In this document: positions 1,011 to 42,465 of the stretch, one piece after another | How positions within the stretch are numbered: position 1 is the first letter of the stretch | How the letters are laid out: each line of letters opens with the position of its first letter | Source: Rhododendron vialii | Lineage: Eukaryota; Streptophyta; Magnoliopsida; Ericales; Ericaceae | NCBI RefSeq assembly: GCF_030253575.1 | Contig: NC_080568.1 | Coordinates: 33,135,001 to 33,199,000, forward strand | DNA length: 64,000 nt | Direction: 5' to 3' | Position numbers and translations under genes: made by a program | The notes under the pieces: generated by a model | What the model was told of the DNA's origin: nothing | Databases searched by the model: none | Seen by the model: the letters and a program-made list of their open reading frames with translations, nothing else

Positions 1011-1111
1011 GTTTTTTCTTAGAAATGGGTAATTTTCTGACAAAAAAAAATCCCTTCAAATGAGTTTTGATATCGATCAATCTAGTGTTTCATACTGTAA
1101 CAAACACCCCA

Positions 1112-1312
1112 GGGTTGGCTTAGTGGTCAAAGCTTGGCATTTAAGAGTTTGCTCCCTCCTAAGGTGGTTTCAGGTTCGAAACCTTTAGGGTCAGTCGAAG
1201 CATTTGCTCCGGCTTCAAGTGAGGCCCCTCTTGTGAATGGTGAATTTATGGTCTTCAGGATTAGTTGAGGTGCATTTAAGCTAATCCGTTCATCTAGTTA
1301 TAAAAAACAAAT
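1112..1312 (+). mobile_element. tRNA-derived SINE with 10-bp target duplication
   Basis: The head resembles a tRNA-type pol III promoter: box A-like TTGGCTTAGTGGTCAAAG and box B-like GGTTCGAAACC at about 1173-1183. The body is followed by an A-rich tail. The element is flanked by the direct repeat AAACACCCCA (1102-1111 and 1313-1322). Its end lies 45 bp from the donor side of NPF copy A exon 2. The matching place in copy B (about 17580-17600) has no SINE. Confidence 0.85.
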
Positions 1313-1356
1313 AAACACCCCAAAAATTTGATCAAAAATAAAGAGAGAGAATTTAC

Positions 1357-3237: not shown

Positions 3238-4009
3238 TTTTTAGATCTGCAGAGAGACCTCCGTTTCCCTTCTAAAAATGAGAATCCTTTACTTTTTTTT
3301 TCAATAAAAGAATGAGATTCTTTGATACTCACTCAGAGTCAGATAAGCTAGTGGAATTGTGGGTGATTTATAAACGTGAAGGAGAGTGGATACATAAGTT
3401 GATGATGGTCCCATTTTAACGAAACCACCCAAAGTGGAGGAACAACGCAAGAATATGTGGTGTTGGAGGAGTACCACGTGACAACGTCACAAGATCTTAG
3501 CCGAGCAATGGAGTATGGTTCAAATTTGTTTGCGCTCAAAATTCAATATGAGCCGTTTGTGCCGAAATGAACGGCCCGATTGGCTACTCTACATGGTGTA
3601 GAGCGGGGGTGCTCGGCAGCATCCCCATTCCCACGATAGTTTTTTTTTTTTTTTTTTGTCTCTAGATCATGCTTTTTCCTGTTGACTGGTGGTAATTGGA
3701 TGCGTGGTTCTCTCTCCTCTTCAATACCTCTCACCCTAAGCCACCTTAATGGCTCCACTAGCAGCCTCATTCTCCATGGGCATGATCATCAGCACCATCA
3801 GTCACACCTCAATTAGTAGTTGAGGGAGTTATGGCCGGATTGTGAGGGAGAGAAAGAAACCACTGGGTATCTGCATGTATAGCCGTATAGGTTTCAGTTT
3901 GAGTAAAACCTTTATAATCTCCTCTCATATTGAAATTATCTGCCCGCGGACATACTTGTTTTGGGAGAACCAGGTGAAAATCTGAGTTATTTTTTATCAG
4001 ACGAAATAG
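3238..4009. other. 5' flank of NPF copy A
   Basis: No gene seen. Positions up to about 3420 resemble the 5' flank of NPF copy B (about 18641-18915), including a shared GATTTATAAACGTGAAGGAG stretch at about 3363. Beyond that the two flanks diverge. A T-rich run lies at about 3640-3657. Confidence 0.6.
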
Positions 4010-13599: not shown

Positions 13600-16500
13600 C
13601 TATACCTCATCTTCCTTGGACTTTTCTTCTCCATTCTTAACTCCACTTCCTTTTATATGCAACTCCTCCTTCAAATCTTCCCCCTTGTCGTTAAGCTTAA
13701 AAAACCCTTCCCGATCAAATAAAACCTTAGAAAACCCTTGATCTGCACAAGGCCCATATGCCCAACTACACAGAATAAAATAAAGCACATTAACCAAACT
13801 CATAATTGCGAGAAGCCAATAGTAGCTCTCATAATGACTTTGATTGATATTATTCGAAATCCAACTATCTTTTCCCCCTCTTTTAGTAACCTTTTCCACA
13901 GTACTCAGTATCAAACTGGCCAACAAACTCCCCACAGCCAGCCCCAATCCGGATAGAGCCACTGCCATGCTCGACATGCTCTTTGGCAACTCCGAGTAGA
14001 AAAACTCATTTGATGCAATCACGTTCAGGGCTTCCGCCACACCCATGAGTAAATATTGTGGTACAAGCAACATAGCTGACATATGAACAACTCCTATGGG
14101 GTTATTGTAATAGCCACTTTCCAAGGCTTTTCTCTTTCTATAATGCTCCACAATTGCTGCAACTACCATGGCCAAGAAAGAGCAAAATAACCCGACACCC
14201 ATTCTTACTTTTACGCCAACTGAAAAGGGTTTTCCTCTTATTTTCGAAGCTACAGGAATGATAATGCGATCGTAAAGAAAGATCCACATTACTATACCGA
14301 TTAATATGAACACAGAGAAGGAGCCTGCAGGTATTTGGAACCTTGGAGTGAGGTGTCTGTTCATGGATTGAGCTTGGAGAAATTGGAAGGTTGCCTGACT
14401 TATGTTTACCGACATCATGATCGATGAAGACCATAATGGCATGACTCTGATGAGTGATTTTAGCTCTTCAACTTGGTCTACTGTGCAAAGGCTCCATGCA
14501 TTGGAAGCCTCTCCCTCTGGAGTTATGCCCTCATGGTTCCTAATGATGCAAGCTTTGTTTAAGAACCTGAAAAGGAACAAAATAACAACATTCATCAATC
14601 CAGTCATGGGGAAGCTCTATATTTTTTGGTAAGGTCCTGTTTGGTTCCAGAATTCACAATCTATTTAGTTCAGTCTTTATCTTTGGAACTTAAAAACTTG
14701 TTTGGTAAGATTTTCGGAAACATTTTTAGGAAATTTGTTGAAAAAGAACCCATCTTTGGAAAACATCATAATCACGAAAAACATTTCACAATATGTCACC
14801 AATGATTGTTATACTGTTATGTATCCCAAATACATTTTTGAAAAGTACATATGTTGAAAACCAACTTGGAAAGTACAACCTACCGAGCTTCTTTGGGCTT
14901 AATTAAGATGAAGAGCAACTAAGCTCAAAACCAGAAAGGCGGAACCAAGTTTTGAAGTACAGTTGCTTAAGCATATCAAACTTCAAGCTAAATAAGCTGC
15001 AAATAAGTGTAAAACATTCAAAATTTAAGCTTTTTTTTTTTTTTTTTATAAAGCTCAATAAGCTGCAAGTAAGTGGGAAACAAACGGACAATCGTACCTA
15101 AGTTTTCTGGTTGGCTCGGAGAGAGTTGAGTCACTCATGCGATGATACCTCAAATTCGATTCATCAGACGGCAATGCTACTTTTATATTCTTGATACAAA
15201 CTACAATCACTCGTGCAAAGTTAGTAAACAAGCTCATGGTAGCTTTCTGTTTGATATAAAACGGAGAGGCGATGAAGAACGAAAGAGCAGATAAGAACAT
15301 GAGGATTGCGGGGACTCCAAACCCTACTTTCCATCCAGCATTATCTTGAATGTAAACGATGACAGTCAATGCAATGATGACTGAAATAGAAATTGCAGCG
15401 TAGTACCAACTGAAGAATTTTTCTAAGACCTGTTTGTTGTTTGGATTGTCTCTTTGGTCCACTTGGTTTGCTCCAAAAGCTAAGGAACAGGGTCGAATCC
15501 CACCAGCTCCAATGGACATTAGGACAAAGGAAAAGAGAAGGGTTGCATATTGGGATCCTGTTGGAGATTTGCAGCTCTCCCCCTTTAGTTGGTTGCAGTA
15601 AGGTGGCCTTGTTTGGGGGATCACAGTCGTCATCCACAAGAGGACCATTCCCTATAACCGTGAAAGTCAAATTTAGATCAATTTGGAACTACAATTTGGT
15701 TAATCAAGTTAAGTTGAGAATTAACCACAGAAGAGTTTGATTCTGATAATTATGATTTCAATCTTTTGGATTACGGTTATCAACCAAAATTTGTGTGTTT
15801 TGTTTTGTTTTGGGAAATAAAAAATCCATTCAATGCACGTAAACAAGTACAAACAAACTGGGCCATCCTCCCAAGCATCAAGGAAAAAAGAATCTCAAGA
15901 CAAAAATATACCAATCCCTAGTTTTACAGGTTTATTTGAGCTGAATTTTGTAGAGCCACAGCCACAGCACATCCAGACACTAGGCTCATTGTCCAGCCTT
16001 TGGCCAGGAAATTCCTACTGTAATGAAAAAGTTCCGGACGCTGCTATTTCCAGGCCTGAGCTTTTAATCCCAGCAACGGCGCAAAATCCCTCACAGTATC
16101 ACCTAAAAATCGCCTTCTAATTTTATTTTTTTTTAAAAAGAACAAATTTCGTAGAGCCACTGCTGCAGTTCATTATCCATAACAAAGTAATGAAGGAGAG
16201 TGAGGAGATTGAGGGCTTGCTCAGGGCCTTTTTCTGTTGAGGGGTTCATCTAAACAACCCCGGACGAAAGTTAGTTGTTTACCAAATGTGTAATTAAGGA
16301 GGAGAGTGGTTTAAGGTTCAGACCCTTGACAGAATGGAAGAAGGCCACTATACTTCGGCAACTTTGGCCTATTAGCAGAAAGTCTGATTCCCAATGGGTT
16401 AAGTGTGAAAATACATACATAATTAAAAGGCAAAGTTTACAGGATATCAAAATCCCTAATGATTGTTCATGGTCTAGCAGGAAAGTGTAGAAGCTTAGAC

Positions 16501-18640
16501 ATTTGGGACAGCCCTTGATCACATAGTCATTGGTAATGGGGAGGATAACCTTCTATAGATTAATAACTGGCATCCTTTAGGCCCTTTTTTTAAGAAATTT
16601 GGGGAGGTCCTTCAACACTAGAGTGGATCAATCTTTCAGAATGGTATATGGCACTGAAATAGGTTGGTGCATCAAATTATGAGGCAGACCCCTGATTCTG
16701 TACAACCCCAGGTTCAAATTTCTGACAGGGTGGCTGGGCTTCCATCATCTAGTGGAACATATAAGACCTACTTGGGAAACTGTTCCTTGGTATAATATTG
16801 TTTGGTTCAAAGGGTATGTACCTAAATGGGCCTTCGTTCATTGGTTATGTTGTCCACTATGTTCTTTGTGATCAAGAGGAAGAAAGCCAAAATCATCTCT
16901 TTTCCTGCAGTGATTTCTCAAGCTATGTGTGGTACTCTATACTGACGCGAAAAGGACCAAATAGAGTATTAAAATTTTCTCTCTAATTTTCTCATTCTTT
17001 CCTTCTTCATTATTTTCCTTTCCTTTCCCTCACTTCCCACAAGTTCCAAACAGGGCGTAAGTTAAGATGGATGGTTCAGAATGCAAGCTACTACTCTTTT
17101 AGGAAATCATGTGATTATGATCTCCTTGGTTGCTACCGTATATGGAGGGAAAGGAATGCAAGAATCTTAGTCCAGAAAGCTAGGGATCCTATAGATATTG
17201 TTAGAAACATCTTGACATACATGAGGAGCAGATTCAGCTCTTGGAAAAAGGAAGGTCTCTTTGGAAGTCTGCAAAGCCTGGGTGTAGTTTTTCTAAGCAA
17301 TTTTCTTTCTATAAGCTACGTGAAGCTTTCTTTTCTTTTTTCTCTGTTGTCTAGCCTTCTAATGGCTGGGTGAGGGCTATGCCCCTCTGGTTTTGTTGTA
17401 GCCTAGTGCCTTTAGGAGAAAAATAAACCTATTAAAATATACAAAACTATAATTTATCAAAAATTTTACTAAATTAAGTGAATCTATCATAATACGAATT
17501 TACCATAAAACAAATTTATCACGTCTAAAGCAAAAGAAATGTCCATTCAAATAAATTTTGATATCCATCAATCAATCAGTTTTCCAAAACATCCTGAAAA
17601 TTTGATCAAAAAATAAAGAGAAAGCAATTACCAGGAGACTGAAGATGGAGCCAAGGCCAATGGTGAGGAATCGACCCAGATATGAATCAGAGATAAAAGC
17701 TCCAAATAGTGGAGAGAAATTGGTAGCCGCAGACCAGAAAAAGAGTATGTTTGTCCCTTCGATTACCCCGATGTGGTACTCTTCCATCAAATACAATATC
17801 ATGTTTGACAACAACCCATAGCTAGCCAACTTCTCCAATCCTTCATTTGCTGTATTCATTTACCCACACAAGAATCTCAGAGATCAGGGGGAAAACCCCG
17901 ACAAACCCCATGAATATATGAGCTTAAACGGGAAAACCAATACAAACCCATGTTATACAAAGCCTTTATACTGTTAGGAATTTGCCAAATCCAAACACAA
18001 GATTCAAGAAATACGCAAACAACTGCAGAGAAATGAAAAGCAAAAATTACACACAACACTTGATTTTACGTGATTCAGCAATAATTTCTGCTGTTGTTTC
18101 ATTAAAGGAAGAAGAAAACTGGCAAATTACCTTTGAGTAAGTCATACGAGTACAATATAGAGCTAGTGTTACACATAAGTCTAAAATTACTGAATCTGGG
18201 AGAAATATGCCTACGTAAAGTAAATGGATCCTCTCCCGTAACTTTCCTGGAGGATTCTAACAAGTGTGGATCCCACCCGCATACTCTTACCGGTAAAAGT
18301 ATGCTGGATTCTAAGAAAAATGCGGACTGTCCGGGACAGTAACCGGAGAGGATCTACTTAAAGTACCATCAAGTTCCAACTTCCACATTGCAAAAACCCA
18401 GGGGCTGGCCTGGAGGCCAAAGGTATTGGACTTAATGGTATGCTCCTCTCATCTTAGTTCAAAATCTTCCGGTGCTGTCAATTCTTTTGGGATTTATTAC
18501 ATGTATATGTGTGCGTGATTTATAGACGAACATGTATGAATTGACGGTGGAGTGGGATCAAAATGTGTACCTATGATAAATGGCATGGTCATAAGGCCAC
18601 CCTTTTGTCTTCTCCGAGGAGACTGCTGCTGCTCCTCCAT
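13600..18640 (-). CDS. NPF1-type (NRT1/PTR) transporter, copy B, complete
   Basis: Complete four-exon gene: 18571-18640 (ATG at 18640), 17632-17849, 15098-15651, 13600-14566 (TAG). Phases join cleanly to give 602 residues, normal for the family. It is a 12-helix proton-coupled carrier of the NRT1/PTR (NPF) family. Motifs: ExxEK at residues 26-30, AFISDSYLGR, GGIRPCSLAFGANQ, SWYYAAIS, the central loop ending KLRFLNKAC, VPQYLLMGVAEAL, and SNEFFYSELPKSMSSM. The tail is charged. The closest relatives I recognise are NPF1.1/NPF1.2 (low-affinity nitrate transport in Arabidopsis leaf veins); some NPF members also carry hormones, so the substrate is an inference. Intron 2 contains a LINE remnant shared with copy A. 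No frame damage seen. Confidence 0.95.
16275..17430 (+). mobile_element. LINE ORF2 3' remnant in intron 2 of NPF copy B
   Basis: Broken plus-strand coding remnant homologous to positions 1-1010, with the zinc-binding RVT region at about 16798-16945 (IVWFKGYVPKWAF, then CDQEEESQNHLF). It ends in a pyrimidine-rich tract and an ATAAACC-like 3' end. It runs opposite to the NPF gene. Shared position in both NPF copies shows it was there before duplication. Confidence 0.8.
18217..18362. repeat. short MITE in intron 1 of NPF copy B
   Basis: Inverted ends TAAATGGATCCTCTCC and GGAGAGGATCTACTTA enclose about 146 bp. AAG occurs directly on both sides, but a 3-bp match is weak evidence. Copy A has no such element at the corresponding place. 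Confidence 0.6.
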
Positions 18641-21600
18641 TTTAACCAGATCTGCAGAGACCTCCATGGATCTTCTTTCAACAAATGGGACGAACCCTTT
18701 TTTCTATTTCTCAGTATGATTTTGAGATCATTGGTTACTCCCTCAGATATGCTCTGTTTTCATAGCAAATCACATAGAAGTGTAAATCACTCAGCAACAT
18801 GGAAGTGAAAAAGATTGGGATTTTTTTTGTGGGTGATTGATTTATAAACGTGAAGGAGAGTAGGGATTATATAGTAGTATTAAAGTTGATGATGATGGGT
18901 CCCACAATCCCACTGGCTAGTTTCTTTCGTTCACGACAAGGGAGGACTGGAATTTAGAAGAATCTGAGGAATTGGGCAAAACGGGCGTTGACCCCTGGGA
19001 TTGAGGGCCTGGCTTTTTTAAGGCTTTTTTCCACTGTATTTTTTATACTACAGTTTTCTCTTAATTTTTATTTACTTCTACAAGATTCAAGATCATATTT
19101 TTTGTCTCGACCAGAGAAATTCTTAGATAGAAAATTTTAAAAGCATTAGATGCACATGGCTCACATGCACCAAACGACTCCAGACACAATTGTGTCCAGA
19201 ATTTTATGTTTTAAAAGAGAGATGTGTGGTTAGATTTTTTGACAAAAAAAAAAAAGAGATGTTTTTATAAATTTTTTATTCACTAAATTGCCATTGCAAA
19301 TGAGGTCGACTTCGAGACCTCATGATAGATTTTGACTTTATACATACAAACAAATCAAGGCCATCGTAAATGAGGTAGTAGCGGAGTTAGGATTGAAATT
19401 CAGGAGTGACAACTATTCACAAATGAGATAGTGGCGGAGTTTAGTAGGTTGCCGTCATATGCAAAAAGTTTTAAGTCTCTACATTCCCGTCGCTAATGGC
19501 TTTTCATAATCCGAAAAAGTAAAACCAATGAGAACAAAGAAAATATAAAAAAAAAAAAAGAAAAAGAAAATTAGACTGGACTTTATTGAAAGTGTGATTC
19601 TCTAATTTAACCAATTACATGCGTTTTAAAAAGTTCCATAAGTGCCTTGAGAGATCAGCAGTTCCTTTCATGACAGATCTTGTTGCCACTTCACATCACC
19701 AATAATCAAGGTGCTATTATCATGATTATCATAATAAATTAAAAAAGGTGCAATTATTATGGTATTTATATGATCGAAGTCTAATCAATCATTTACCCTT
19801 GTAAGAAGGTGTAATCAAAACATTAATTGTAATCTTAATTTCAGTAGGCAGTGGGTTAGATTTGTGATCTAATTATTGTAATAACTAAGCGCGGTGGATA
19901 AGTCTTGTCAAAATTGAGTTGTTATAATAATTTCTTGCTATTGCTCTTTAGAAATGAATTATTCTTGGGATCGAGACAAACGCTTATTTGTCAATGAGTA
20001 GTCGAAATCAAACCTATTTTGAGAGCAATAGATAGCCAGAACTATCGAACATGACCATTGATATCTCTCTTAGAAGTAATATGGTTTGTTTAGATATGTA
20101 CATACTTTCGATTAACTTGATTTCACAAAGATGATAAAAATATCAAGACATTTTTTAAAAGGAGAACAATAGCTGGACTTGTAAAATAAAGAATTCTAAT
20201 GATAAAAAAGGAATCAAGGTAAAAGTTTGTTTTCACTAAATTAGGAATCCCACAAATATTCCAATCACAGGATCTTAATTTGAACCACAACTTCTCCTAC
20301 CAATGGCACAATAAAATGAAATGAATTGGCACAATCTATAATCCTATCAATAATTGTGTAAAATGCGGTTAAGTGACAAGTGATTTGCTTACAAAATGTC
20401 ATCTTACATTAGTTTTTTTAAGCTTCAACATATCACACACATCAACGCAAGTTTATTGAATAATGAACATATCTAAGTCTTCAGGTTTTCTTGATCGCTC
20501 TGATTCAAATCTTCGCAATCACATACCTGATGACAACATCAATATTTGTTTATCCAGACAACATGACATATTGAGTGATACATAGGCAAATTCCATGCAG
20601 CCGAGCCATGGCACCAGACGCCTGCATGGCGCATGGAGTCTAGCCAGCTACTAAACCCACGGGGCAGGGCGCCGGGTGGAGCAATACTAGCCCACCCCAA
20701 CCGCATGTCCTCGCACGGTCGCACCCACCGCTGCACGGGTGGGACTCACGAGTTTCAGGCCTCCACGCCCATTCCAACGTACGGCCATGCGCGATGATGA
20801 CTTGAAGGCTTACCCACTTCCGATCGAGCAGAAACCTCATCCGATTCGGCCCCCCACAAGCATACATCCATCACTGTAGTCAAAATTGGAAAAAGTTGCG
20901 TCACATGCATCAGTCATGTGTGTTGTCTCTAGACTTGCTTTTTCAAAGGGAAAACTTTTGAGTCAGCTCATCAAGTGGATCGGACCATTAGGTCCCATCA
21001 TTCTCAAATTGTTATGTGCTCCCGCACTCAACATTCATACTACACTCGGGCTCTTAGATTCTCGCTCTTCGCAAATTTTAATAGTTGTGAATGCGCTTGG
21101 AAGAAATTTTTATATTCGCGCTTTCGCTCGCGCACATTAATTATGTGACTTAGATTGAACCCGAATCAAAACTATATCAGCTTTAGATGTGAAAGGGTTA
21201 GAATCTGGCTTGTCTAAACTGAACTGCAGAGGTGCGGTTCAAGTGATCGCAACCGTTGGATGGTATTTTTAATGATCCAAATTAATTTCCATATTCTTAC
21301 CATTTCAGCAAATCTGAACCATTGATTATCGAGATGAACGATTTAGATTACACCACATAAGCCCAATCCAACGGGTTAACCACATTGCGTAAGGGTGATA
21401 TCATCCCTTCGTAAAAGAAAAGTCATTGGATTTTTGGTCTTCAAAAATTTCTAGTAGATGATTAGAGAAAAGTAGAACTTTTTTGCTCTGTTATTTGAAC
21501 TGATTGCCCACTGGAAACGGAAAGAGCAATAATTGGACCTTGCAATGTCCGAAATAATTGCTCCATAATTTTTTAGTTAGAGAACGCACATGAGTAACGA

Positions 21601-29871: not shown

Positions 29872-30446
29872 CTAGGCCTTTTTCTTCTTGGGCCAACACC
29901 CCGGCTGAACCACGGGCTCCCCGGTTGGGTTCAGTAATTCCTCAACACGCTTAGAAGTGGCGTCGGCTGCAACCCTCGCCGCCTGGGCTTCGGACCCCGT
30001 TCTCTTAGCATCTGCAGCATACCTTTGAGCCAATTCTCTTGCCTCGGCAGCTTCTTTCTCCTTTCTTTCAGCTCGCGCAACGTATTTAGCAGCTTTATCG
30101 TCTGCCTTTTTCGCCCTTTTTATAGCCTTCCATTTTTTGGAGTCCGCAAGTTTCAGCTCAGCTGCATGCAAGCGCTTAGAACATTAGAAATCAGGCCATG
30201 CATGTTTGGCTCGCATCTCTCAAAATCATTCTCTATTTTTTAGTTCCGAACGTGCGTTCCTAAACATAAATTGCCGGCTATTAGCGTCGTAGTCGCTAAA
30301 TCCTTAGAGCACCTGGATGTATGCATGAGAACTAAAATGTTAATTTCGTAGGAAGTTTGATTAATTTAGTGACAGTTAGTTCGTACTTAGTACCAACAAG
30401 TTTAAAATTTCTTCTTCTTCTTCTTCTCCTTCCCCCCCCCCCCCCC

Positions 30447-30489
<43 letters not shown>

Positions 30490-30777
30490 CTTTGGTGGTT
30501 GTAGGCTTGTAGCTAGCTCAAAGTACGTCAACTGTTAAGTTGTATATATTTTGGTTCAGCAATTTGGAATAGATATGGAGGGATGAGAAAATTTGGAAAA
30601 CCTTTCAGTTCCATCAAGTTTTCTGTTTCCTCTTCATATTCCTCCACCAAATATTCATTATCCAAACACAATATAATATTAGAATAAAACTAACCTCAAG
30701 AGACTCGACAAAATGTCAATAAAAGGAAGCTAGCTATTAAGAGATGGTAGTAGTAATATACCTTTTGCATGATCCAT
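29872..30777 (-). CDS. small Ala/Lys/Glu-rich helical protein, copy 1 of 3
   Basis: Two exons: 30762-30777, a 16-nt exon coding MDHAK plus one base, and 29872-30161 (stop TAG), giving 101 residues. The body, about residues 6-80, is charged and Ala-rich with few hydrophobic residues (KKWKAIKRAKKADDKAAK, ERKEKEAAEARELAQRYA), as in a soluble or disordered alpha-helix. It resembles late-embryogenesis-abundant-type proteins in composition, but I do not recognise a named family. Compared with copies 2 and 3 the C-terminus is replaced and lengthened (after SKRVEELL: NPTGEPVVQPGCWP then Lys-rich). The intron has a C-run and CT microsatellite. The 16-nt exon is supported by conservation in all three copies and by matching phase. 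Confidence 0.8.
30432..30486. repeat. C-run followed by (CT)n microsatellite
   Basis: About 26 C residues run directly into about 14 CT units inside the intron of small-gene copy 1. Copy 3 has a shorter CT tract at the matching place (about 40226-40260). The length is prone to sequencing and slippage error. Confidence 0.9.
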
Positions 30778-30931
30778 TGATGTATATATGATTTAATTCC
30801 TTTCTCTCGCCTTCAATTTGTAACAAATCAGCTAGAACTCGATCCGAAGAAATTGCCCTTGCAGAGAAGAGCTATTGCGAATTGGGTGGATCTGTTGAAG
30901 TTGGAGCTGGCAATCGGTAAAGGGTATATAT

Positions 30932-30940
30932 GGATAAATA
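30932..30940 (-). promoter_or_regulatory. TATA-like box of small-gene copy 1
   Basis: The minus strand reads CTATTTATC, 155 bp upstream of the start codon. The same word occurs upstream of copies 2 and 3 (35359 and 40632) in an otherwise conserved leader, which supports a core promoter. Confidence 0.55.
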
Positions 30941-30967
30941 GTTGAAGAAAGAAAGACGAAAAAGATA

Positions 30968-31182
30968 CTCCCTCCGTCCCAAAATGATTGTCCGGTCCGC
31001 AAAACGGAGTGATAAAAATAATGCAATTTTTTCAAGAAAAAATTTAAACTTTTTTCACAAATTAAAAATATTCATTGATATTTAGTAAGTTGTTAAAAAA
31101 CTTTTGATTTTTTCTTGCAAAAATTGTATTATTTTTAACACCTCATTTTGCGGACCGGACAAACATTTTGGGACGGAGAGAG
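30968..31182. repeat. Stowaway MITE
   Basis: Inverted ends CTCCCTCCGTCCCAAAATG and CATTTTGGGACGGAGAGAG, with the TA target duplication at 30966-30967 and 31183-31184. Both arms continue into GGTCCGCAAAA. Its near end lies 28 bp upstream of the TATA-like box of small-gene copy 1; copies 2 and 3 lack it. Confidence 0.92.
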
Positions 31183-31788
31183 TAGAAAGCAAGGGCATGC
31201 AGGTGCAGAAAGAAAGCCCAAGACCACTGATGTATACTCAGCACCTAATATTGTACACGTAAGTGTGTGTGTTGTTTGTTTGCTTTTTTTTTTTTTTTAG
31301 CACGGCAGGCCGGTAGTACTACTTTCCCTAGTCATGTGGCCATTTGCTACGTGTCTTCTACCATTAATGTTTTTTCTGCCTTGGTATGCCTCTGGGGCGT
31401 GGCGGTGCCTCGAAGGAGCATATGGAATAATTAATTAATTACTCGTCACATGGACTCTTTAGAAAGAAGATTTTTTAAAATAATAATAGTCCAAACAGAT
31501 GGAATTCGTTTTCCCATAAAGATGATGACACGTTGCCTGATGGTTAAGATCACATCAATTTACACTCTCATTTAATACCCATACTCAATTTTTTGAATGC
31601 GCCCTATACGCATCATGCATTCTCAAGTCCACACCTTTGTTAGTGTGAGTGAGCAATTTATATCTCTCAATGTCGATAATTAAAGATTTGGCTCAGGAGC
31701 AAAGCTTATCCTTCAATTGGGTTAGGAGATCAACCAATTGGGTTTTCCAACCGAGTTTCGTCGGTTAGAAAAAATTGTGTAACGACTA

Positions 31789-31819
<31 letters not shown>

Positions 31820-32189
31820 TATTGTGATTAGCGGTAATCATGGAGTACTGATTTTGGTTTTCTATGATTAATAATAATGTGCCAGCTGACAAAGTTCTTT
31901 TTTTAAAAAAAAAATTGATCACCGACCAAGTTCATATTTTTTTACTGAACTGACCGACCAAGTTCATTAAATAGTGGGAAGATAAATTAGTATCTTTGTT
32001 ACCTTTTGGGAAATGAGGGTAGGGTGCTGTGTACTGTGGATTTAGATCCACTCCCCACATTCTCTCTCTTCGCATCGTGTGGAGCTTTCAACTGGAGAGT
32101 GACATTCTTTACAAAACTGATCCAAAGGTTGTATATAGCCCATAGCTTAGCACATTAATCAGTAAATTTTCCACATCAAACGGCGTCGG

Positions 32190-32737
32190 TAGGGTTGCAA
32201 ATGAACCGAGCCGCTCGCGAGTGACTCGCAGCTTGGCTCGTTAGTGGCTCGTTCAAGCTCGGCTCGGAAGTTAAACGAACAAGCTCGAACCGATCTTTTC
32301 AGCTCATTTTGTAAACGAGCCGAGCTCGAGCAAGAATAAGCTCGAGTCGGCTCGCGAGCCGGGGTATATATACTCAAGTTTAAAATTTTTATGGTTATTT
32401 CATAATTTATTCTTTCCGTTTTCACTTTCCAGTCAACCAAGGGAGGGGAGAACACACGAACACTAGTACACTCCCGCTCCATAAGAAAATGAAAAATATA
32501 TACCTTCACAATCAAAATATTTTTGGTTATATTAGGCCTATACAAGGATATATATACATTTTTCGTTGGTCCGCTGAGGCTCGTGAACAAGCTCGAGCTT
32601 GAGTCAAGCCAAGGCCTGCTCGGCTCGAGCTCGACTCGTTAAGTTTTCACTGAGCTCGAGCTCAAGTTCGTTAAAAATTTAATAAACAAGCTTGAACACT
32701 GTAAAGCTCGGCTCGACTCTGCTCGTTTGCAGCCCTA
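32190..32737. mobile_element. hAT-type non-autonomous element
   Basis: Inverted ends TAGGGTTGCAAATGA and TCGTTTGCAGCCCTA, with both arms rich in GAGCTCG/GGCTCG. Flanked by an 8-bp direct repeat with one mismatch: GGCGTCGG (32182-32189) and GGCATCGG (32738-32745). No transposase. The duplicate block around small-gene copy 2 shows the uninterrupted site (about 36180-36215). Confidence 0.88.
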
Positions 32738-33044
32738 GGCATCGGTTTTTAATACCCCAAAGTCCACCCATGTAAGTCTTGACGCCAACAGAGCTTCAAC
32801 AATGCTACACACGCAATAATTCAACCATAACCCCGACTACAATCTCCCACATACACGTGGGCCCCACGTGCATGCGAGAGGGTATGGTTGAATTATTGTG
32901 TACCTAGACTTATTGACAGAGCTTACCTCAGTCATAGTCAAGGGGATTTTAGAAAAATTAACTTGGAGAAGATTTCGTAAAAATGCTTGTTTTTTTGGTA
33001 CACAAATGGAAATGCACGTATGCTACACCGTTACCTCCACCACC

Positions 33045-33197
33045 AAAGAGTATTATAGGAGCCGAAGCTAAAGTCTCACTATGCGTGGGTGGTGTTAGGA
33101 GTATATTCAACCCAAATGATCAGGGGCTATGGGGACTTAAATCTAGGATTGTCTAACAAAATTTAAGTTCCTAATCACTGAACCAACCCCTCATTGA
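33045..33197 (-). mobile_element. SINE-like element, reverse strand
   Basis: Read on the minus strand it starts GGGTTGGTTCAGTGATTAGG (box A-like) and continues to a box B-like AGATTTAAGTCCCC, then a SINE-like body. No target duplication was identified. Confidence 0.5.
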
Positions 33198-34510
33198 TTC
33201 TTAAAAATGCTTGTCAATCATGTGAGAGGGATGATTAAGAACACGAGCACAGGAGGATGTTTGAAAGCAAAAGAGGATGAGAAAGATTTTCTATTCTCTA
33301 GCTTATTTATAGAGAGAGCACTACACCGCCCTCTAACAATAAATTCCAACCCAATATGAAAGGTTACAAAGAATTCCCAACAAAGTTACCACTCCACTGC
33401 ATGACCTTCTACTTCAGCACACTTCACAAACTCCCTTTCTTCATTCTTCTCTCCAAAAATTCTGAAAATTCCCTATTACAGGCCGGGGGGAAAAAACCCA
33501 CCAACTTAAGATGCCAACAATTATTGATAGATTCTTTCCAAGTAATTCAAATGCTACGTACCGTGTTTGTAAGCGGACATTTGTCATTCACAAACAATAA
33601 ATCCAAAAGGGATTGCGTGAATTGAATAAGATTTTGTGCTTCCACGGTTTAACAATGTTTTCTACAGGGTACTAGTAAGATGTTTTTCATGTTTGTCCGT
33701 TGCAGTTATATGTAGAATAGAGCACTCGATTTTTTGTGAATGCAAGGATTAATTATTGATAGGGCATTTTTGAAAATCCAAAGTGCAAGTGGGCTTTAGA
33801 AAAAGGTTCATACCAAGTGGGATATTGCCTTTTAATAGAAGTAATAGATTAGATAATTATATGTGTTTGAATATTGATCATTAGAATTTTCTTAATTAGA
33901 AATAAAGACCTCAATAGGTAATAAAGCCTCACCAAGAACCCTTTGAAATGCCACATTCTCGATATTCTCTGGTCAGAGAATTTATTTTCTTTTGTAATCT
34001 AAAGCCTCGCGCTCGTTAAACTTTAAATAGCATTAAATATTGCAATAATTTTGGGTTAAAATTGGCTAAATAGACCTGCTCTCTCTATCGCTCTTAACTT
34101 AAAAATTAATAAAGCCATTTCTAAAATCAGCCAGTATATCTTAAGAAAGATTAAGCGTGTTGGAGAGGACATGTTAAAAAACCTTGATTACAAAAGCTTG
34201 ATTAACAAATTTATTACTTATTTAATAAGAATTCAAAGTTTAATTTTTAAATTCTAAAAGAAATTGATTTTCGCACCCATTTTCTTGTTTTTACTTGCAT
34301 GAGATTACATTTCCTTTGCCCGGCCTTGAATGATTTCTCTTTGGTATACATGCAAGGGTAATATGACATATTCACACGACTTAAGACAAGAAAAAGAGAG
34401 TGATTAAAAGAAATTTTATTAAGCCTAGAGTGGCGATACAAAGATCATGAAAAGGAAACGAAAGCAAAATAGCATCACAACCGGGGCCAAACATCATAAC
34501 TACGTAGGCA
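33198..34510. other. gene-free interval between small-gene blocks 1 and 2
   Basis: AT-rich DNA with short unmatched frames. No repeat with defined ends was found. Confidence 0.5.
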
Positions 34511-34511
34511 C

Positions 34512-34670
34512 CTAAGACCCTGATCCTCTGTACCGGAAAACCTCTGTTTGTAGGTTTCTCGGTACAGAGAAATTTCGTACTGCTAAAAATCGCATAAATT
34601 TTACAAAATAAAATACTAATTCACACACAAACAATTTTACTGGTTTCTCAGCAGAGAGGATTTCTCGTGC
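34512..34670. repeat. MITE of the GATCCTCTGTACCGAGAAA type at the 3' end of small-gene copy 2
   Basis: Begins GATCCTCTGTACCGGAAAAC with a reverse-oriented relative (TTTCTCAGCAGAGAGGAT) close to the gene's stop. Relatives are at 36728-36888, 42055-42217 and about 45290-45460. Part of its right side is also present behind copy 3 (about 39340-39375). Confidence 0.5.
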
Positions 34671-34681
34671 CTAAAAGACCC

Positions 34682-35233
34682 TCACTTCTTCTTGCCTTCA
34701 ACATGCTTAGAGGCAGAGTCGGCCGCAGCCCTCGCCGCCTGGGCTTCCGCCCCCATTTTCTTAGCATCTGCAGCATACTTGTCTGCCAATTCTCTAGCCT
34801 CGGCAGCTTCTTTTTCCTTTCTCTCGGCTCGCGCAACGTATTTAGCAGCTTTGTCTTCCGCCTCTTTTGCCTTCTTTATGGCTGCCCATTTTTTGGAGTC
34901 CGCAACTTTCAGCTCAGCTGCAAGCACTCATCCAGCAAGAGCAAGTACTTTAGAACATTAGAAATTAGGCCATGTTTGGCATCTTTAAAAATTTACTCTC
35001 TATTTTTAAATTGTATTTTGGTTCAAGAACTTGGAATAGACTTGTGGAGGGATGAGAAAATTTGGAAAAACCTTTTCAGTTCCATAAAGTTTTTTTTGTT
35101 TCCTCTTCATATTCCTCCACCAAATCATTATCCAAACACAATATTATAATCAAACTAACATCAAAAGACTCAACAAAATGTCAATAAAATGACGCTAGTA
35201 AGAGATGGCAGTAGTACCTTTTGCATGATCCAT
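34682..35233 (-). CDS. small Ala/Lys/Glu-rich helical protein, copy 2 of 3
   Basis: Exons 35218-35233 (16 nt, MDHAK plus one base) and 34682-34917 (stop TGA) give 83 residues. The charged helical body reads KKWAAIKKAKEAEDKAAK, ERKEKEAAEARELADKYA and ends SASKHVEGKKK. There is no signal peptide, membrane segment or cysteine. The intron is only 300 bp, the shortest of the three, lacking a segment present in copies 1 and 3. Function unknown; composition suggests a LEA-like or coiled-coil protein. Strand, exon pattern, leader and flanks match copies 1 and 3, so this is a tandem duplicate about 4.5-4.8 kb from each neighbour. Confidence 0.82.
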
Positions 35234-35358
35234 TGATATGTGATCGATGTTCCTTCCTCTCCCCTTCAAATTTGTTCAAATCAAAAAACCAAAGCAAAGC
35301 AAAGGAATTGCTAATTGGGTGGATATGAAGTTGGAGCTAGCAATAGGTGAAGGGTATG

Positions 35359-35367
35359 GATAAATAG
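35359..35367 (-). promoter_or_regulatory. TATA-like box of small-gene copy 2
   Basis: CTATTTATC on the minus strand, 126 bp upstream of the start codon, in the leader conserved among the three copies. Confidence 0.55.
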
Positions 35368-35804
35368 TTGAACACAAACAAGGGCAGGTGAAGAAAGATA
35401 AACAAAGGGCCTACTCATCATCAAATAAAAAAAAGAAAAAGAAAAGCAAGGCAGGTGAGAAAGAAAAACCTTCCTGCACGTGGCCCCTTGGGGCATCGCC
35501 GCATAGTCCCCCATTTCTTTCTCCATCCCGTTACAAAATTTACGAAGCCCATGCATGGCAAGAAAAGAGTTTGGACACTGTCTCGTAGTATTTCACATAC
35601 TCATCACATGGACTCTTTAGAAAGATTATTAAAATAAGGGATGAAAAAGCAGAGTAGGTGCTCTCTAGAAAATGGAAGGGGCTGTAGTACGCCAATCGCT
35701 GTAGTACGTCAATTCGATCGTCTATCTCAGCACAAACGACTTGGATTTAATTCGAACTCCTATAAATCTTAGCCGTCCATTATTCGGATGGTATAGTGCA
35801 CCCA

Positions 35805-35925
35805 TTGTAGTACACCGTGTAGATGTGCACCCGCCGCACTACACAGTGTAGATATGCATCCACTGCATTACACTGTGTAGATGTGCGCATCTGCCGCACT
35901 CCACCGTGTAGATGTGGCTGGCAAG
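35805..35925 (+). repeat. degenerate 33-36-bp tandem repeat
   Basis: Three to four units built on GTGTAGATGTGCACCCGCCG. The open frames here on both strands are products of the repeat, not genes. Confidence 0.8.
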
Positions 35926-36294
35926 GTTTTTTTTTTCAATTTTTTTTTCCTTATCACCGACCATGTTCATTGAATATTGAAAAAATAAATTATCTTTGTC
36001 ACCTTTTGAGGAAAATAAGGGTAGGTGCTGTGTACCCCCTACGGATTTGGATCCTCTCTCCACATTCTCTCTCTCCACGTCGTGTGGAGCTTTCAACTAG
36101 AGAGTGACACTACATTACGAAACTGATCCAAAGGCTGAGAATAGGCCAGCACATTATTCAGTAAATTTCCCACCTTAAAAGGAGGGTCGGTTTGTAGAGC
36201 ACGCCCCCCAAGTCCCACCCATGTTTTTGACGCCAGAGGAGCTTACCCCCATTCCCAATATTAATATAGTAGGAGAAAATCTTTTTGACAGCGG

Positions 36295-36480
36295 AGCCAT
36301 GAGTAGTTATTTACAGAGCCAATTGTTCGGATGTTAATAAAAAAAATTCGGGGAAGTTGAACGTTTTCTCGAAAAAGTTATATTAAAATTTGGACCGTCT
36401 AGAACACTTTTGGACTGTCACGATTTGTTGCTATTGTAAACAACTTGTTCATAGCTCCTAAGTTTCTCTCATTAAGTAGT
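36295..36480. repeat. foldback MITE related to 39999-40184
   Basis: Arms TTATTTACAGAGCCA and TTGTTCATAGCTCCTAA with an internal inverted pair around TTGGACCGTC and TTTGGACTGTC. A third member lies at about 49615-49830. Ends approximate. Confidence 0.5.
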
Positions 36481-36727
36481 GCTCAAGTAGAAGCTTTGTT
36501 TGGTTCAATAAGTATATAATCACACACAAACACTTTCACATACTCACTCACAATAGGAATGGGCCCCGCACACACCAGGGATAAATTTAGCAAATGTGCA
36601 AGTGTTGGCCAATTTTGCCCAATCTTCTAGCCAAGAGTGAACCGTTCAACAATTTAATGGATTATTTCAAAATTTTAACTTATCGATAAAACTTCATATT
36701 AGTTTATTATCTCATAGGAGATCCTCT

Positions 36728-36888
36728 ATACCGAGAAAGTACCCCTGTTTTCATGTATCGAGAAATTTTGGACCATTGGATTGTGTAAGAATTATTTTTG
36801 TTTCATAAAATTTTTATGCAGATCCAATGGTCTCGAATTTTTCGGTACAGGGATACAGAGGTTTCCCGACATCGAGGATCCAGCTTCT
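36728..36888. repeat. MITE of the GATCCTCTGTACCGAGAAA type, block 2
   Basis: Inverted arms around GATCCTCTATACCGAGAAAG and TTCGGTACAG...GAGGATCC, with a centre containing CCATTGGATTGTGT and its inverted partner ATCCAATGG. The same element is at 42055-42217 in the duplicate block, so it predates that duplication. Confidence 0.65.
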
Positions 36889-37044
36889 TATTATCTAACT
36901 TAAACCTTAACTAAGTGGGGTGTACACTAACTTTGGCTATTTTGACACTTCAACATTTAAAAGTTTAGCATCTCCATAGCGGATGCTCTCAGTCGAAGAA
37001 TCTGTTAATCAAATTTAGCTGTCGTTGATTTTAAGCAAATGATA

Positions 37045-38568
37045 GGCTTAATTGCAAGAACACCCCCTAAACTATCGTATTTTGGCAAGTTCACCCCCTT
37101 AAGTTTAAATTCGAGCAACTTCACCCCCCAAACTACCAAATTCGAGCAACTTCACCCCTCCCCCATTTTCCGTCCATTTCTGTTAGGGAAATTTTTAAAA
37201 ATGGTCCCTCTAGTTTGCACGAGTTCTCATTTTCGTCCCTCTACTATTAATTGTATCAATTTTAACCCTGTAGTTTTCATTCCATCTCAATTTCGTCCTT
37301 CTCCCTGACACCGTCCATGAAACAAACGGAATTGAAGGGCAAAATTGTCATTTTCTCTCACAGAGGGACCAAATTGAAATTTTATGCAAACCAGAGGGAT
37401 TATTTTTAAAATTTTACATTTTACTTTCGTTTTTTGCAAATAAAATAAAAAAAAGACCATAAGTAATGTATTTGACAACTGAATTATTTTTTATTGGGTA
37501 ATCAAACTATATTGAAAAATTTATATTTCATTACACATTACAAAAATATTAGAAAATGCACAAATCAACCCCTTAGCTAATGTCTTTGTATCATGTTCTT
37601 ATAATCTTCTTATTTTTTCACCCAATAAAAAAAATGTTTAAAATCCGTGTTTATTTGTTATATGAGTGATCTTATGAGTAAGTCCCAAAATAAAAACACT
37701 TATACCCATATTTTAATGTATTTGATCTCTTAATATTTAATAGTGTTTCATTGCTTAATTAAACACAATTACAAGATTTCTAAATACTACTGAACAACTT
37801 TTTCTTTTTAATCATGTGACAAAAAAAATAACGATAGTGAAAATTCAATTGAAAAAAAAAATACAAGACCAAGACAATTATCATAAAGGTTGTTTTTCGA
37901 ATTTTCTCATATTTTTTGTGATGTATATAATAAAAACTTTACAAAATTTCAACATATTTTTTATTATTCAATATAAAATGAGATGAGAAATATATTATAT
38001 TTGATGTATTTTAAATTTATTTACAAAAACAAAAGTAAAAAATAAAATTATAGAAATAGTTCCTCTAGTTTACATGAAATCTCAATTTAGTCCCTCTGTG
38101 AGGAGAAATGACAATTTTTTCCTCCAATTCCGTTTGTTTCATTAACGCCGTAAGCGAGAGGGACGAAATTGAGACAGAATGCAAATTAGAGGACTAAAAG
38201 TAACACAATTGATACTAGATGGACGAAAATGAAAATTCATGTAAACTAGAGGGACCATTTATAAAAATTTCCCTTTCTGTTATAAATTTGGATGGAAAGT
38301 TTCAAAATTGGGTACCAGTCCCACCTAAAATTCGGTACCAGTACCAAATTTGGACAGAAAATTGGGTACCAGTACCACCTAAAATTCTGTACCAGTACCA
38401 AATGTGGAAACTTTCCATCCAAATTTATAACAGAAATAGACGGAAAATGGGGAGGGGGTGAAGTTGCTCGAATTTGGTAGTTTGGGGGGTGAAGTTGCTC
38501 GAATTTAAACTTAAGAGGGTGAACTTGCCAAAATGCGATAGTTTAGGGGGTGTTCTTGCAATTAAGCC
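37045..38568. mobile_element. long-TIR Mutator-like non-autonomous element
   Basis: A 1,524-bp element with very long inverted repeats. Both ends start GGCTTAATTGCAAGAACACC, and pairing continues for roughly 300 bp with a few differences, through TTCGAGCAACTTCACCCC and GGTCCCTCTAGTTT. The 9-bp direct repeat CAAATGATA flanks it (37036-37044 and 38569-38577), the Mutator size. No transposase is visible in the AT-rich middle (about 37440-38040). The duplicate block has the uninterrupted site (42370-42378, CAAATCATA). The right arm carries an extra palindromic insertion (38274-38436). Confidence 0.9.
38274..38436. repeat. perfect 30-bp inverted repeat with internal tandem repeats
   Basis: Arms 38274-38303 and 38407-38436 are exact reverse complements (left arm starts TTTCTGTTATAAATTTGG). 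Between them lie two copies of a roughly 60-bp unit containing TTGGGTACCAGT and CCACCTAAAATTC. The matching place in the left TIR (about 37176) lacks this sequence. Confidence 0.85.
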
Positions 38569-38765
38569 CAAATGATACGAAGATTTTATGGATCGGTTTC
38601 TAGGCCTGCTAAGGGCGAGCGTCAGGCTGGCCCGAGTATAAGTGGGTTTCCGCGCCTCACTATGGCTCGGTCCAGTTATGAATTTAGATGGGCCAGGCCT
38701 TGTGTTCTGGGTCTGATAGGATCAACCCAGCCATGGTTATGCCAAAAGTAATGCTATGATATCTA

Positions 38766-38941
38766 CTTCCTCTGTCCCAATTTGTTTGTCTAATCTCGGA
38801 TTTTCAATTTATTAGGAAAACCAAATCTTATTCATTGATTTGAAAATGTACATAATCTCATCCATTGATTTTGGAAATTGGACAGTCAATTTGGGACATG
38901 CACAAGTCAAAAAAGAAACAAACAAATTGAGACGGAAGGAG
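38766..38941. repeat. Stowaway-like MITE
   Basis: Inverted ends CTTCCTCTGTCCCAATTTG and CAAATTGAGACGGAAGGAG, with TA on both sides (38764-38765, 38942-38943). The pattern is the plant Stowaway CTCCCTCYGTCCC type. Confidence 0.8.
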
Positions 38942-39393
38942 TAGCAAGCTAGGGCATTTCCAATGGTTCAAAAGTCAAATGGCTACTTGAAGCTAAATTG
39001 TTAATAATAATTATATATAAAAACGAGACAAAACGCTGCATCTTTTAGCAGTATTGCTCCGGTGTTACACAGACATTTCTAAAGAAAGACATGTAATCTC
39101 AAACGACGGAGAGTCTCGTCACAAGAGATAAAGATAAAGAGACAATGGGTGTTTATAAACGCATCCTAGTGCTCGAGTACTAGAACACCTGTAAAAGCCA
39201 AAGAGAGTATCATGTATTAAAATTTACATAATATATCCACATATTCGCCACACAATTTTCAAACCGCTGAATCACATGAATATTTTACAAGAACGTTTGA
39301 CTTATCAAAAATAAAAAATATTTTACAAGAACAAAAAAAAATTTACTGGTTTATCCGTAAAGAGGATTTTCTCGTGCCTAGCCAAGACCCTCC

Positions 39394-40537
39394 TCACTTC
39401 TTCTTAGGGACTTCAACAACATGCTTAGAAGCAGCGCCGGCTGCACCCCTCGCCGCCTGGGCTTCCGACCCCTTTTTCTTAGCATCTGCAACATACTTGT
39501 CCGCCAATTCTCTAGCCTCGGCAGCTTCTTTTTCCTTTCTTTCGGCTCGCGCAGCATATTTAGCAGCTTTGTCTTCGGCCCCTTTTGCCTTCTTTATGGC
39601 TGCCCATTTTTTGGAGTCCGCAGCTTTCACCTCAGCTGCAAGCACTCATCCAACAAGTACGTACTTAGGACATTAAGATATTATGCCATGTTTGGCATCT
39701 TTAAAAAATTTACTCTATTGTTAGTTCCGAACGCGCGTTGCTAAACAAAAATTGTCGGATATTAGAGTCTCATAATCGATAAATCCTTAGAGCATCTAAA
39801 TGTATATGTATGCATGAGAATCATAATACTAATTTCATACGATGAGCAACAATACATACATATACATCCATCAATCACACTCTTTTTTACATTTGTACGG
39901 GACCCACACAATTGATTGTGGGATTCACGCATTTGTAAGAGGGGTGTGTTTGGAGGCGCTGGGTGTGTACCTGTTATTTCCCAAGTTCAATTATTGGATG
40001 AGAAATACTTATTTACAGAACAACCGTAAACAAGTGTTTACAGCTCTCAAGTCTAGATATTAATGAAATTTTTTCGAGAAAGAGTTTCAATAAAATCTAG
40101 ACCGTCGAAAACAATTTTGGACGGCCGTGATTAATTGTCGCTGCAAACAGCTTGTTTACGCTCCGTAAATAAGTACTATTTCTCTTATTGGACTCCAGTT
40201 AATTAGTACCTACAAGTTTAAGATTTCTTCTTCTTCTCTCTCTCTCTCTTTTCTTTTTTCCTTTGGTGGTTGTAGCTAGCTCAAAGTACGAGAACTGTTA
40301 AGTTGTGTTTTGGTTCAAGAACTTGGAATAGATTTGTGGAGGGATGAGAAAAATTGGAAAACCTTTCAGTCCCATCAAGTCTCCTGTTTCCTCTTCATAT
40401 TCCTCCGCCAAATCATTATCCAAACACAGCTTTCGAATAAAACTAATCTCAAAAGACTCAACAAAAAAAAAATGTGAACAAAATGATGCATGCTAACTAG
40501 TAATTGAGATGAATTAAGTACCTTTTGCATGATCCAT
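39394..40537 (-). CDS. small Ala/Lys/Glu-rich helical protein, copy 3 of 3
   Basis: Exons 40522-40537 (16 nt, MDHAK plus one base) and 39394-39635 (stop TGA) give 85 residues. The body reads KKWAAIKKAKGAEDKAAK, ERKEKEAAEARELADKYV and ends SKHVVEVPKKK. It is closest to copy 2; the second exons differ at scattered positions without frame damage, which suggests all copies are under coding constraint. The intron (886 bp) contains a foldback MITE with target duplication (39999-40184). Function unknown; composition is LEA-like. A conserved leader with a TATA-like box lies upstream. Confidence 0.82.
39999..40184. repeat. hAT-like foldback MITE in the intron of small-gene copy 3
   Basis: Arms TGAGAAATACTTATTTAC and GTAAATAAGTACTATTTCTC form a long hairpin. 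The 8-bp direct repeat TTATTGGA flanks it (39991-39998 and 40185-40192). Introns of copies 1 and 2 lack it. Confidence 0.85.
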
Positions 40538-40631
40538 TGATAAAAGAATTTCGATCAGAAATCAAATTAACAGTTGAGCTATTGCGAATTGGGTGGATCT
40601 GCAATTGGAGCTAACTATCGGTAGAGGTTGT

Positions 40632-40640
40632 GGATAAATA
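40632..40640 (-). promoter_or_regulatory. TATA-like box of small-gene copy 3
   Basis: CTATTTATC on the minus strand, 95 bp upstream of the start codon, at the position conserved among the copies. Confidence 0.55.
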
Positions 40641-41579
40641 GTTGGAGAAAGAAAAACAAGGGCCCACAAATCAAATTAAAAAAAGAAGAAGAAGAAAGCC
40701 AGGTAGGCCTACAAATCACATGGACAGATGGACTCTTTGGATAGATTTTCGAAATAAAGTAATAGTCTCCTAGGAAAAAAGAGAAACAGGTGGAATTCAA
40801 TTCGTTTTCCACTCGCCTTACGGTTAAGATAGGCACAGTTGACCAGATCGGTTCTCTTTTACTTAATTAATTTTTTTGTTTTGTATATTTTATAAGGTTT
40901 TTTTTATAATTTTTGGTCACTAAAGACGAATTAAGTATCAAACAACTGTTTTTTGGAGCTTAGTTAAATGTCGTCTTATTTGAATATTTTCTGTATATCA
41001 GTTCATATTTTTATACTTTTTCGATCCGTTTCGTCGAGACTAACGATTAATCTTAAAAATTATGACGAAAAGCTAAATGAAAAGTTATAAAATATAAAAA
41101 ATATCGAAATAAGTTCCAGACTTATAAACGTTTTTTTTTTTTCTCCTCATCACCGACCAAGTTCATTGACTATTAAAAAATAAATGATCTTTGTCACCTT
41201 TGGTGGGAAATCAGGATAGGTGTTGTGTACTACGGATTTGGATCCTCTCTCCACATTCTCTCTCTCTCCTCGTCGTGTGAAGCTTCCAACTAGGGAGTGA
41301 CACTTCATTACAAAACTGACCCAAAGGTTGAGAACGGGCCAGCACATTAATCCAAAGTTAAACAAGCATTAGAAAAAGAGACTGTTGGCACTCCCAAAAT
41401 CGTTAATTGCACACTCTAAAGTTAAGAATTTTCAGTTAAAGAGTGTGGTTAATAATTTTGGGAAGTGCGAAAATTACTCTCCTAAGAAAAACGGAAAATG
41501 CTAACCTTCGCCCTAAGAATGAAAGATAACAGGTAAAACATGCATTCATATTCACAAAAAATGTATTGATATTTATGAA

Positions 41580-42217: not shown

Positions 42218-42465
42218 CTTCTTATTATCCAACTCAAACCTTAACTAAGTGAGGTGTACACTAACTTTGGCTATCTTGACTCTTTACCATTTAAAAGTTT
42301 AGCATCTCCATAGTGGATGCTCTCTGTCGAAGAATCTGTTAATCAAATTTAGCTGTCGTTGATTTTAAGCAAATCATACGAAGATTTTATGGATCGGGTT
42401 CTAGGCCTGATTTTATTGCGGGCTAAGGGCGAGCGTCAGCCTGGCCCGAGTTTAAGTGGGTTCGG

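Follow-up and report, generated by a model that had tools for sequence, protein, structure and literature searches.

A window of 64,000 nucleotides (nt) from contig NC_080568.1 of Rhododendron vialii (contig 12, 33135001-33199000) holds three tandem paralogues, c1, c2 and c3, which to judge from their sequence are probably small, spliced and functional genes for a charged helical protein. All three lie on the minus strand (c1 29872-30777, c2 34682-35233, c3 39394-40537), and the span 29872-40537 runs exactly from the c1 stop through the c3 ATG. The explanation favoured here, tentatively and at slightly below even likelihood, is that they are two-exon genes for helical protectants resembling late embryogenesis abundant (LEA) proteins. 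The tandem duplicates would encode basic proteins of 9-11 kDa, rich in Ala, Lys and Glu. In dilute water these would be soluble with little fold, and on drying, or in contact with a membrane or a second protein, they may form one long charged helix. The helix could then shield that membrane or protein, in the way of COR15 and other small proteins induced by cold or in seeds. What we infer for the triplet is that the genes are spliced and expressed, that the proteins are disordered in solution and that they protect against stress.

Gene structure of the triplet

The coding part of the first exon, ATGGATCATGCAAAAG, occurs three times within the window, on the minus strand only (30762-30777, 35218-35233 and 40522-40537), with GTA directly 3' of it in all three copies, and TGCAG precedes every exon 2. 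That this first coding segment and the GT/AG borders are identical in all three copies beside a gapped, diverged leader speaks for the genes as read, and the proposal of a tandem triplet sharing a 16-nt first coding segment, with intact frames, is confirmed, the frames being open in 3/3 copies. The introns are of phase 1, and the gene parts are as follows:

30762..30777, minus strand: c1 exon 1, coding part (MDHAK and the first base of codon 6), a 16-mer identical in the three copies and then GTA
30162..30761, minus strand: c1 intron, 600 nt, phase 1, GTATAT...TTGCATGCAG
29872..30161, minus strand: c1 exon 2 with stop, full protein of 101 amino acids (aa), from the open frame and protein alignments
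35218..35233, minus strand: c2 exon 1, coding part, a copy of ATGGATCATGCAAAAG
34918..35217, minus strand: c2 intron, 300 nt, from the GT/AG borders
34682..34917, minus strand: c2 exon 2 with stop, full protein of 83 aa, from the open frame
40522..40537, minus strand: c3 exon 1, coding part, a copy of ATGGATCATGCAAAAG
39636..40521, minus strand: c3 intron, 886 nt, from the GT/AG borders
39394..39635, minus strand: c3 exon 2 with stop, full protein of 85 aa, from the open frame

Read from stop to stop, the exon-2 frames of c1 and c3 contain no Met and the sole Met of c2 lies deep inside, so that a spliced first segment is needed. Exon 1 would not be a micro-exon, because the 16 nt are its coding part only and a 5' untranslated region of ~70-130 nt would be added to it if transcription starts ~30 nt past the TATA box. 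A repeat finder aligned 241 nt across the three copies, with c1 at 83% and c3 at 93% relative to c2. Codons 1-79 align without gaps, and the gaps past codon 79, which are in frame and measure 16+2 aa (c1-c2), 14+2 aa (c1-c3) and 2 aa (c2-c3), are followed by a common KKK; the tail of c1, which precedes KKKKA, is longer and contains Pro/Gly.

The introns carry features of their own. A run of 26 G (minus strand) at 30432-30457 in the c1 intron adjoins a GA-rich repeat, and a block at 35012-35140 of the c2 intron, which has counterparts in the introns of c1 and c3, is about as conserved as the exon and in c2 starts with TGTGTTTGGATAATG and ends with TTGAACCAAAATACA. This block may be an old miniature inverted-repeat transposable element (MITE) predating the duplications.

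Selection and duplication history

Over 221 nt of exon 2, 32 differences separate c1 from c2, 35 separate c1 from c3 and 18 separate c2 from c3, and the introns of the same pairs differ at 32/275, 156/579 and 48/292 positions with 11, 15 and 9 gap openings. In the best intron block, chosen for good alignment, the differences are 13/171, 20/171 and 20/173 and the gap openings 5, 4 and 3. Gaps in the whole coding sequences number 2, 2 and 1, every one of them in frame and confined to the tail, where the best-block rate would predict 7.4, 5.9 and 4.4 (P 0.022, 0.067 and 0.068) and the whole-intron rate 10.1, 6.5 and 7.8 (P 0.003, 0.042 and 0.004), the three pairs not being independent. Among the intron gaps, only 3/11, 4/15 and 2/9 are divisible by three.

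A neutral simulation of 45 substitutions from the majority ancestor (5000 runs) was compared with the set of three, in which 23 nonsynonymous codons were found versus 31.6 expected (P=0.0018), 8 charge-class changes versus 14.1 (P=0.024), 3 Gly/Pro gains versus 4.7 (P=0.30) and 0 stops versus 1.6 (P=0.19). The earlier suggestion that frame and charge pattern survive the substitutions between copies is upheld for the set by the last of these counts and by that of charge-class changes, and does not extend to the c3 branch taken alone. Nonsynonymous changes number 12 on the c1 branch versus 18.5 expected (P=0.003) and 2 on the c2 branch versus 3.6 (P=0.12), and substitutions fall on codon positions 1, 2 and 3 in the numbers 8, 15 and 22 (P=0.038). 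The ratio of nonsynonymous to synonymous rates (dN/dS, or omega) is 0.23, 0.41 and 0.47 by NG86, and 0.41, 0.445 and 0.44 by an MG94-type model under three choices of base frequencies, with confidence intervals within 0.24-0.77 and twice the log-likelihood difference (2dlnL) at 7.4, 6.1 and 6.3. By branch, GY94 gives an omega of 0.54 for c1, 0.38 for c2 and 2.23 for c3, the difference between branches not being significant (2dlnL 2.56). Constraint on the set is therefore probable, carried mainly by c1, and not strong.

Related DNA is found upstream of each gene (31934-32183, 35939-36182 and 41152-41330), and because the duplication reaches beyond the genes, c1, c2 and c3 can be regarded as tandem segmental copies. 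Sites uniting c1=c2, c1=c3 and c2=c3 number 12, 13 and 4 in the leader, 22, 6 and 10 in the 5' intron, 12, 1 and 11 in the 3' intron, and 8, 5 and 22 in exon 2, forming a mosaic in which the 5' intron joins c1 with c2 and exon 2 joins c2 with c3 (Fisher P=0.0011). Such a mosaic would be left by gene conversion or by stepwise mosaic duplication, and unequal rates could contribute. A search of the own genome (532,647,506 bases in 13 contigs) with c2 returned three matches at E<=0.001, all inside the window. At E<=10, with 32 candidates scored, 22 matches were obtained, 3 in the window and 19 elsewhere at E 1.65-7.96; 16 of the 19 sit in open frames of 186-212 aa over many contigs and were tentatively taken for a scattered repeat with a like composition.

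Protein character and family membership

The three proteins consist of 24-31% Ala, 18-22% Lys and 10-12% Glu, with isoelectric points of 9.5-9.8. Their grand average of hydropathy (-1.03, -1.03 and -0.97 for c1, c2 and c3) is of the strong hydrophilicity used as the general LEA criterion, and 3/3 fall on the disorder side of the charge-hydropathy plot, so that the LEA-like composition noted in the initial annotation is borne out. The charged helical body proposed there is likewise supported, as AlphaFold2 predicts for the c2 exon-2 protein one helix over residues 2-74 (mean predicted local distance difference test score 82.4, predicted template modelling score 0.40) from a thin alignment made of the three exon 2s (three sequences). 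Hydrophobic periodicity peaks at 104 degrees in c1 (P 0.07), 104.5 in c2 (P 0.08) and 87.5 in c3 (P 0.33), and when the stretch is chosen a little differently the peak is at 105 degrees in each of the three (P 0.02, 0.08 and 0.30). Opposite-charge pairs at i,i+3/i+4 number 20 in c2 versus 14.1 in shuffles (P=0.037), with P 0.22 in c1 and 0.10 in c3. The C-terminal KKK is kept in all three proteins, Gly makes up 3/101, 2/83 and 4/85 residues, and by eye no targeting peptide appears to be present.

As had been proposed, no family could be named. Neither Pfam nor NCBIfam gave a match over cut-off for any of the three spliced proteins, and the PDB sequences, searched with c2 only, gave none at E<=1. 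At E<=10, Pfam returned sub-threshold families for c1 (3) and c2 (2) and none for c3, the best being PCRF at E 0.12 (E 0.061 for the c1 exon-2 frame alone), and the LEA_1, LEA_2, LEA_3, LEA_5, dehydrin and SMP models matched none of the three proteins. NCBIfam returned 10, 2 and 1 families at E<=10, led by a chemotaxis protein (E 0.02, 13.8 bits versus a cut-off of 776), and these weak matches were set aside as matches of composition. Among viral contigs, 545 pattern stretches were found and tblastn confirmed none; peptide words of the three proteins were not found in a full-text literature search, literature searches on the topic gave no fitting title among those listed, and Rfam (gathering threshold) and ARAGORN gave 0 across the window.

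The group 3 LEA proteins (LEA_4, PF02987) resemble the triplet in being rich in Ala, Lys and Glu, hydrophilic and predicted to be helical, and differ in that the triplet has no PF02987 match at E<=10 and lacks the 11-residue periodicity of L021 and L025. These two controls come from the own genome, where the maximum lies at 98 degrees (P 0.004) for L021, whose PF02987 match is over cut-off, and at 98.5 degrees (0/1500 shuffles) for L025, whose LEA_4 match is below it. PF02987 itself has five matches in the own genome, of which a single open frame of contig 3 contains four and contig 4 the fifth, with none in the window, and 0/14 control genomes matched. On the Pfam result together with the periodicity, LEA_4 identity is rejected. 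Of the two, periodicity is the weaker criterion, since most LEA_4 proteins are without the classical 11-residue motif, PF02987 being the deciding criterion for LEA_4 in the Arabidopsis LEA survey (PMC2292704). Formal LEA membership is thus not supported, and the proteins are LEA-like in composition and possibly in action.

Other small or charged proteins can be compared by description. KIN1/KIN2 (COR6.6) are tiny Ala/Lys-rich stress proteins encoded in tandem, as in the triplet, and differ in being richer in Gly and in having another N-terminus and another gene structure. Hydrophilins share the strong hydrophilicity, but their definition requires >6% Gly, a content that the Gly counts given above do not reach. 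Charged single alpha-helix domains share a long uninterrupted predicted helix with Lys/Glu pairs, whereas pairing in the triplet is mildly above shuffles in c2 and not significant in c1 and c3. Finally, COR15A and COR15B are small, Ala/Lys-rich proteins that become helical on drying. In Arabidopsis these are tandem LEA-type genes below the Pfam gathering threshold (PMC2292704), a likeness to the triplet that is by description only, and they are predicted chloroplast proteins (Table 6 of PMC2292704), whereas the triplet proteins have no transit peptide by eye. LEA genes are often tandem, 17/51 Arabidopsis LEA genes lying in tandem repeats (PMC2292704).

Promoters, genomic setting and alternative readings

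All three leaders share a TATA-like box, TATTTATCCA(T/C)A, located at -163 (c1), -133 (c2) and -103 (c3). The conserved leader described earlier stands as to this box, kept in 3/3 copies, and less so as to the remainder, which is only moderately conserved (25-33% different outside the box, with 4-5 gap openings per pair). Elements of abscisic acid-responsive (ABRE) type and a palindrome that we take to be of RY type, in name and meaning, lie further upstream:

30929..30940, minus strand: c1 TATA-like TATTTATCCATA at -163, from the leader comparison
35355..35366, minus strand: c2 TATA-like TATTTATCCATA at -133, from the leader comparison
40629..40640, minus strand: c3 TATA-like TATTTATCCACA at -103, from the leader comparison
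35478..35484, plus strand: ABRE-type ACGTGGC in the c2 promoter at -245, antisense to the gene, from the motif scan
35550..35557, no strand: RY-type palindrome CATGCATG in the c2 promoter at -324, a single site counted on both strands, from the motif scan
31349..31355, plus strand: ABRE-type ACGTGTC in the c1 promoter at -572, from the motif scan
31527..31533, minus strand: ABRE-type ACGTGTC in the c1 promoter at -756, from the motif scan

RCCGAC is present at -988 in c1, at -958 and -723 in c2, and at -615 in c3. In the three 1-kb promoters, with six motif types tested, P uncorrected and this window alone as background, ACGTGKC occurs 3 times versus 0.28 expected (P=0.003), RCCGAC 4 versus 0.94 (P=0.015), ACGTG 6 versus 2.72 (P=0.058), CCGAC 4 versus 1.92 (P=0.13) and CATGCA 4 versus 2.16 (P=0.17). 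Across the window ACGTGKC is not above chance (6 versus 4.49), and 3/6 of its sites fall in the 1-kb promoter of c1 or c2. The modest enrichment of ABRE-type and dehydration-responsive element (DRE)-type motifs, of which ABRE and low-temperature-responsive element (LTRE)/DRE motifs are discussed in PMC2292704, is a hint that fits a stress-protectant role.

Just upstream of the c1 TATA box lies an imperfect inverted repeat of ~219 nt (30966-31184), with ends like CTCCGTCCCAAAATG next to TA, presumably a Stowaway-type MITE by its resemblance; a partial relative is found at 57020-57102. In the c2 segment, an element of ~1.5 kb at 37045-38568 has 141-nt inverted arms that are 96% complementary, and the c3-side segment around 42365-42378 is continuous without it. 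The triplet is flanked by a POT/NPF-type transporter gene (13600-15651, minus strand) and by an AUX/IAA gene starting near 51721 on the plus strand, 11-22 kb beyond the triplet. Regions 1-3337 and 16359-18747, related at 69-94% over several pieces, form a duplication flanking the transporter gene, and 61913-62376 is a tandem duplication of ~228 nt, 97% identical. The nearest AUX/IAA paralogue is on contig 8 (68% identity), where in 33270001-33320000, a stretch from ~40 kb ahead of the paralogue start to 10 kb past it, the small proteins found no match below E 1.2; the two regions have in common AUX/IAA pieces and one 103-nt match only. The small gene may therefore have been lost there or have arrived or arisen later, or the regions may not be true homeologues.

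Several observations weigh against LEA-like protectant genes. None of the three spliced proteins matches any LEA model at E<=10 in Pfam (HMMER filters lose most weak matches), and the 98-degree, 11-residue periodicity that the same test finds in L021 and L025 is missing from the triplet. The donor consensus carries G at +5, which is lacking in the donors GTATA (c1), GTACT (c2) and GTACT (c3). Judged by substitutions alone, exon 2 has not changed more slowly than the best intron block, and the zero gaps in the first 237 nt are partly so by construction; the indel P values of 0.001-0.016 for this stretch are too favourable because it was cut at the first gap. GY94-F3x4 gives a dN/dS of 0.70, indistinguishable from 1 (2dlnL 1.12), with the c2-c3 pair at 1.10; a ratio near 1, which the initial annotation had counted against function, is thus avoided by NG86 and the MG94-type model and not by GY94-F3x4. 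Of the six frames, the true one is not the lowest in omega, another that contains 8 stop columns being at 0.40, and the c3 branch is without visible constraint (9 nonsynonymous changes versus 9.3 expected, P=0.53). Within 1 kb upstream c3 has no ABRE- or RY-type motif, its RCCGAC at -615 standing alone, and ABRE cores are common in promoters, being present in 58% of all Arabidopsis genes versus 82% of LEA genes (PMC2292704).

It is conceivable, if rather unlikely, that the genes are real and the helix is a short coiled coil or a charged single helix that binds a partner in a structural or regulatory role, with no desiccation protection: the moment peaks of c1 and c2 at 104-104.5 degrees are nearer the heptad value of 102.9 than the 11-residue value of 98.2, c2 shows the mild opposite-charge excess, and the KKK end is kept in 3/3. 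Yet the periodicity is weak on either stretch, the buried positions are on inspection mostly Ala, which is poor for a stable coiled coil, and c2 finds no PDB sequence. Somewhat less probable again is a mixed set in which one or two genes work while a duplicate decays or diverges; c1 and perhaps c2 would then be constrained, and c3 would drift or be under altered selection. The c3-specific changes at two-state sites (1, 6 and 1 on codon positions 1, 2 and 3), the near-neutral count of 9, all 3 Gly/Pro gains and the branch omega of 2.23 would suit it, as would the insert resembling a transposon that directly precedes the TATA box of c1, but the branches do not differ significantly, and c3 is open with its start, splice borders and KKK end kept.

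The proteins could also be lineage-restricted (e.g. Ericaceae-only) tiny helical protectants not derived from LEA proteins. Gene conversion would have reshuffled their tandem array, and seed/abscisic acid control would persist in c2, have changed in c1 through the transposon insert and have disappeared from c3 as its promoter diverged; this is a speculative extension that we consider doubtful. That they are young lineage-specific genes, arisen de novo or strongly diverged, and expressed with no selected function, is improbable: the genome holds no further match below E 1.65, the 50 kb at contig 8 none below E 1.2, and Pfam and NCBIfam no family, but nonsynonymous and charge-altering changes are fewer than under neutrality. 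It is very improbable that the DNA is not coding as read, with an antisense frame or a non-coding repeat behind the open frames. One exon-2 antisense frame is indeed open in all copies (101, 183 and 120 aa from stop to stop), and another covers c3 with 151 aa and c2 with 113 aa. However, the sole antisense frame without a stop column has an omega of 4.99, significantly >1, omega is 1.08 and 0.78 in the other two, which contain 1 and 5 stop columns, and substitutions favour the sense third positions; an antisense gene is disfavoured on omega and stop columns.

As it stands, the triplet of putative LEA-like protectant genes is nothing out of the ordinary, being a small gene in tandem copies that has no family; the genus is described as a high-altitude specialist (PMC13326988). 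If functional, it would represent a small gene family that escapes domain-based LEA surveys, and its three copies with different promoters would offer a way to ask whether sequence-unrelated helical proteins converge on dehydration protection.

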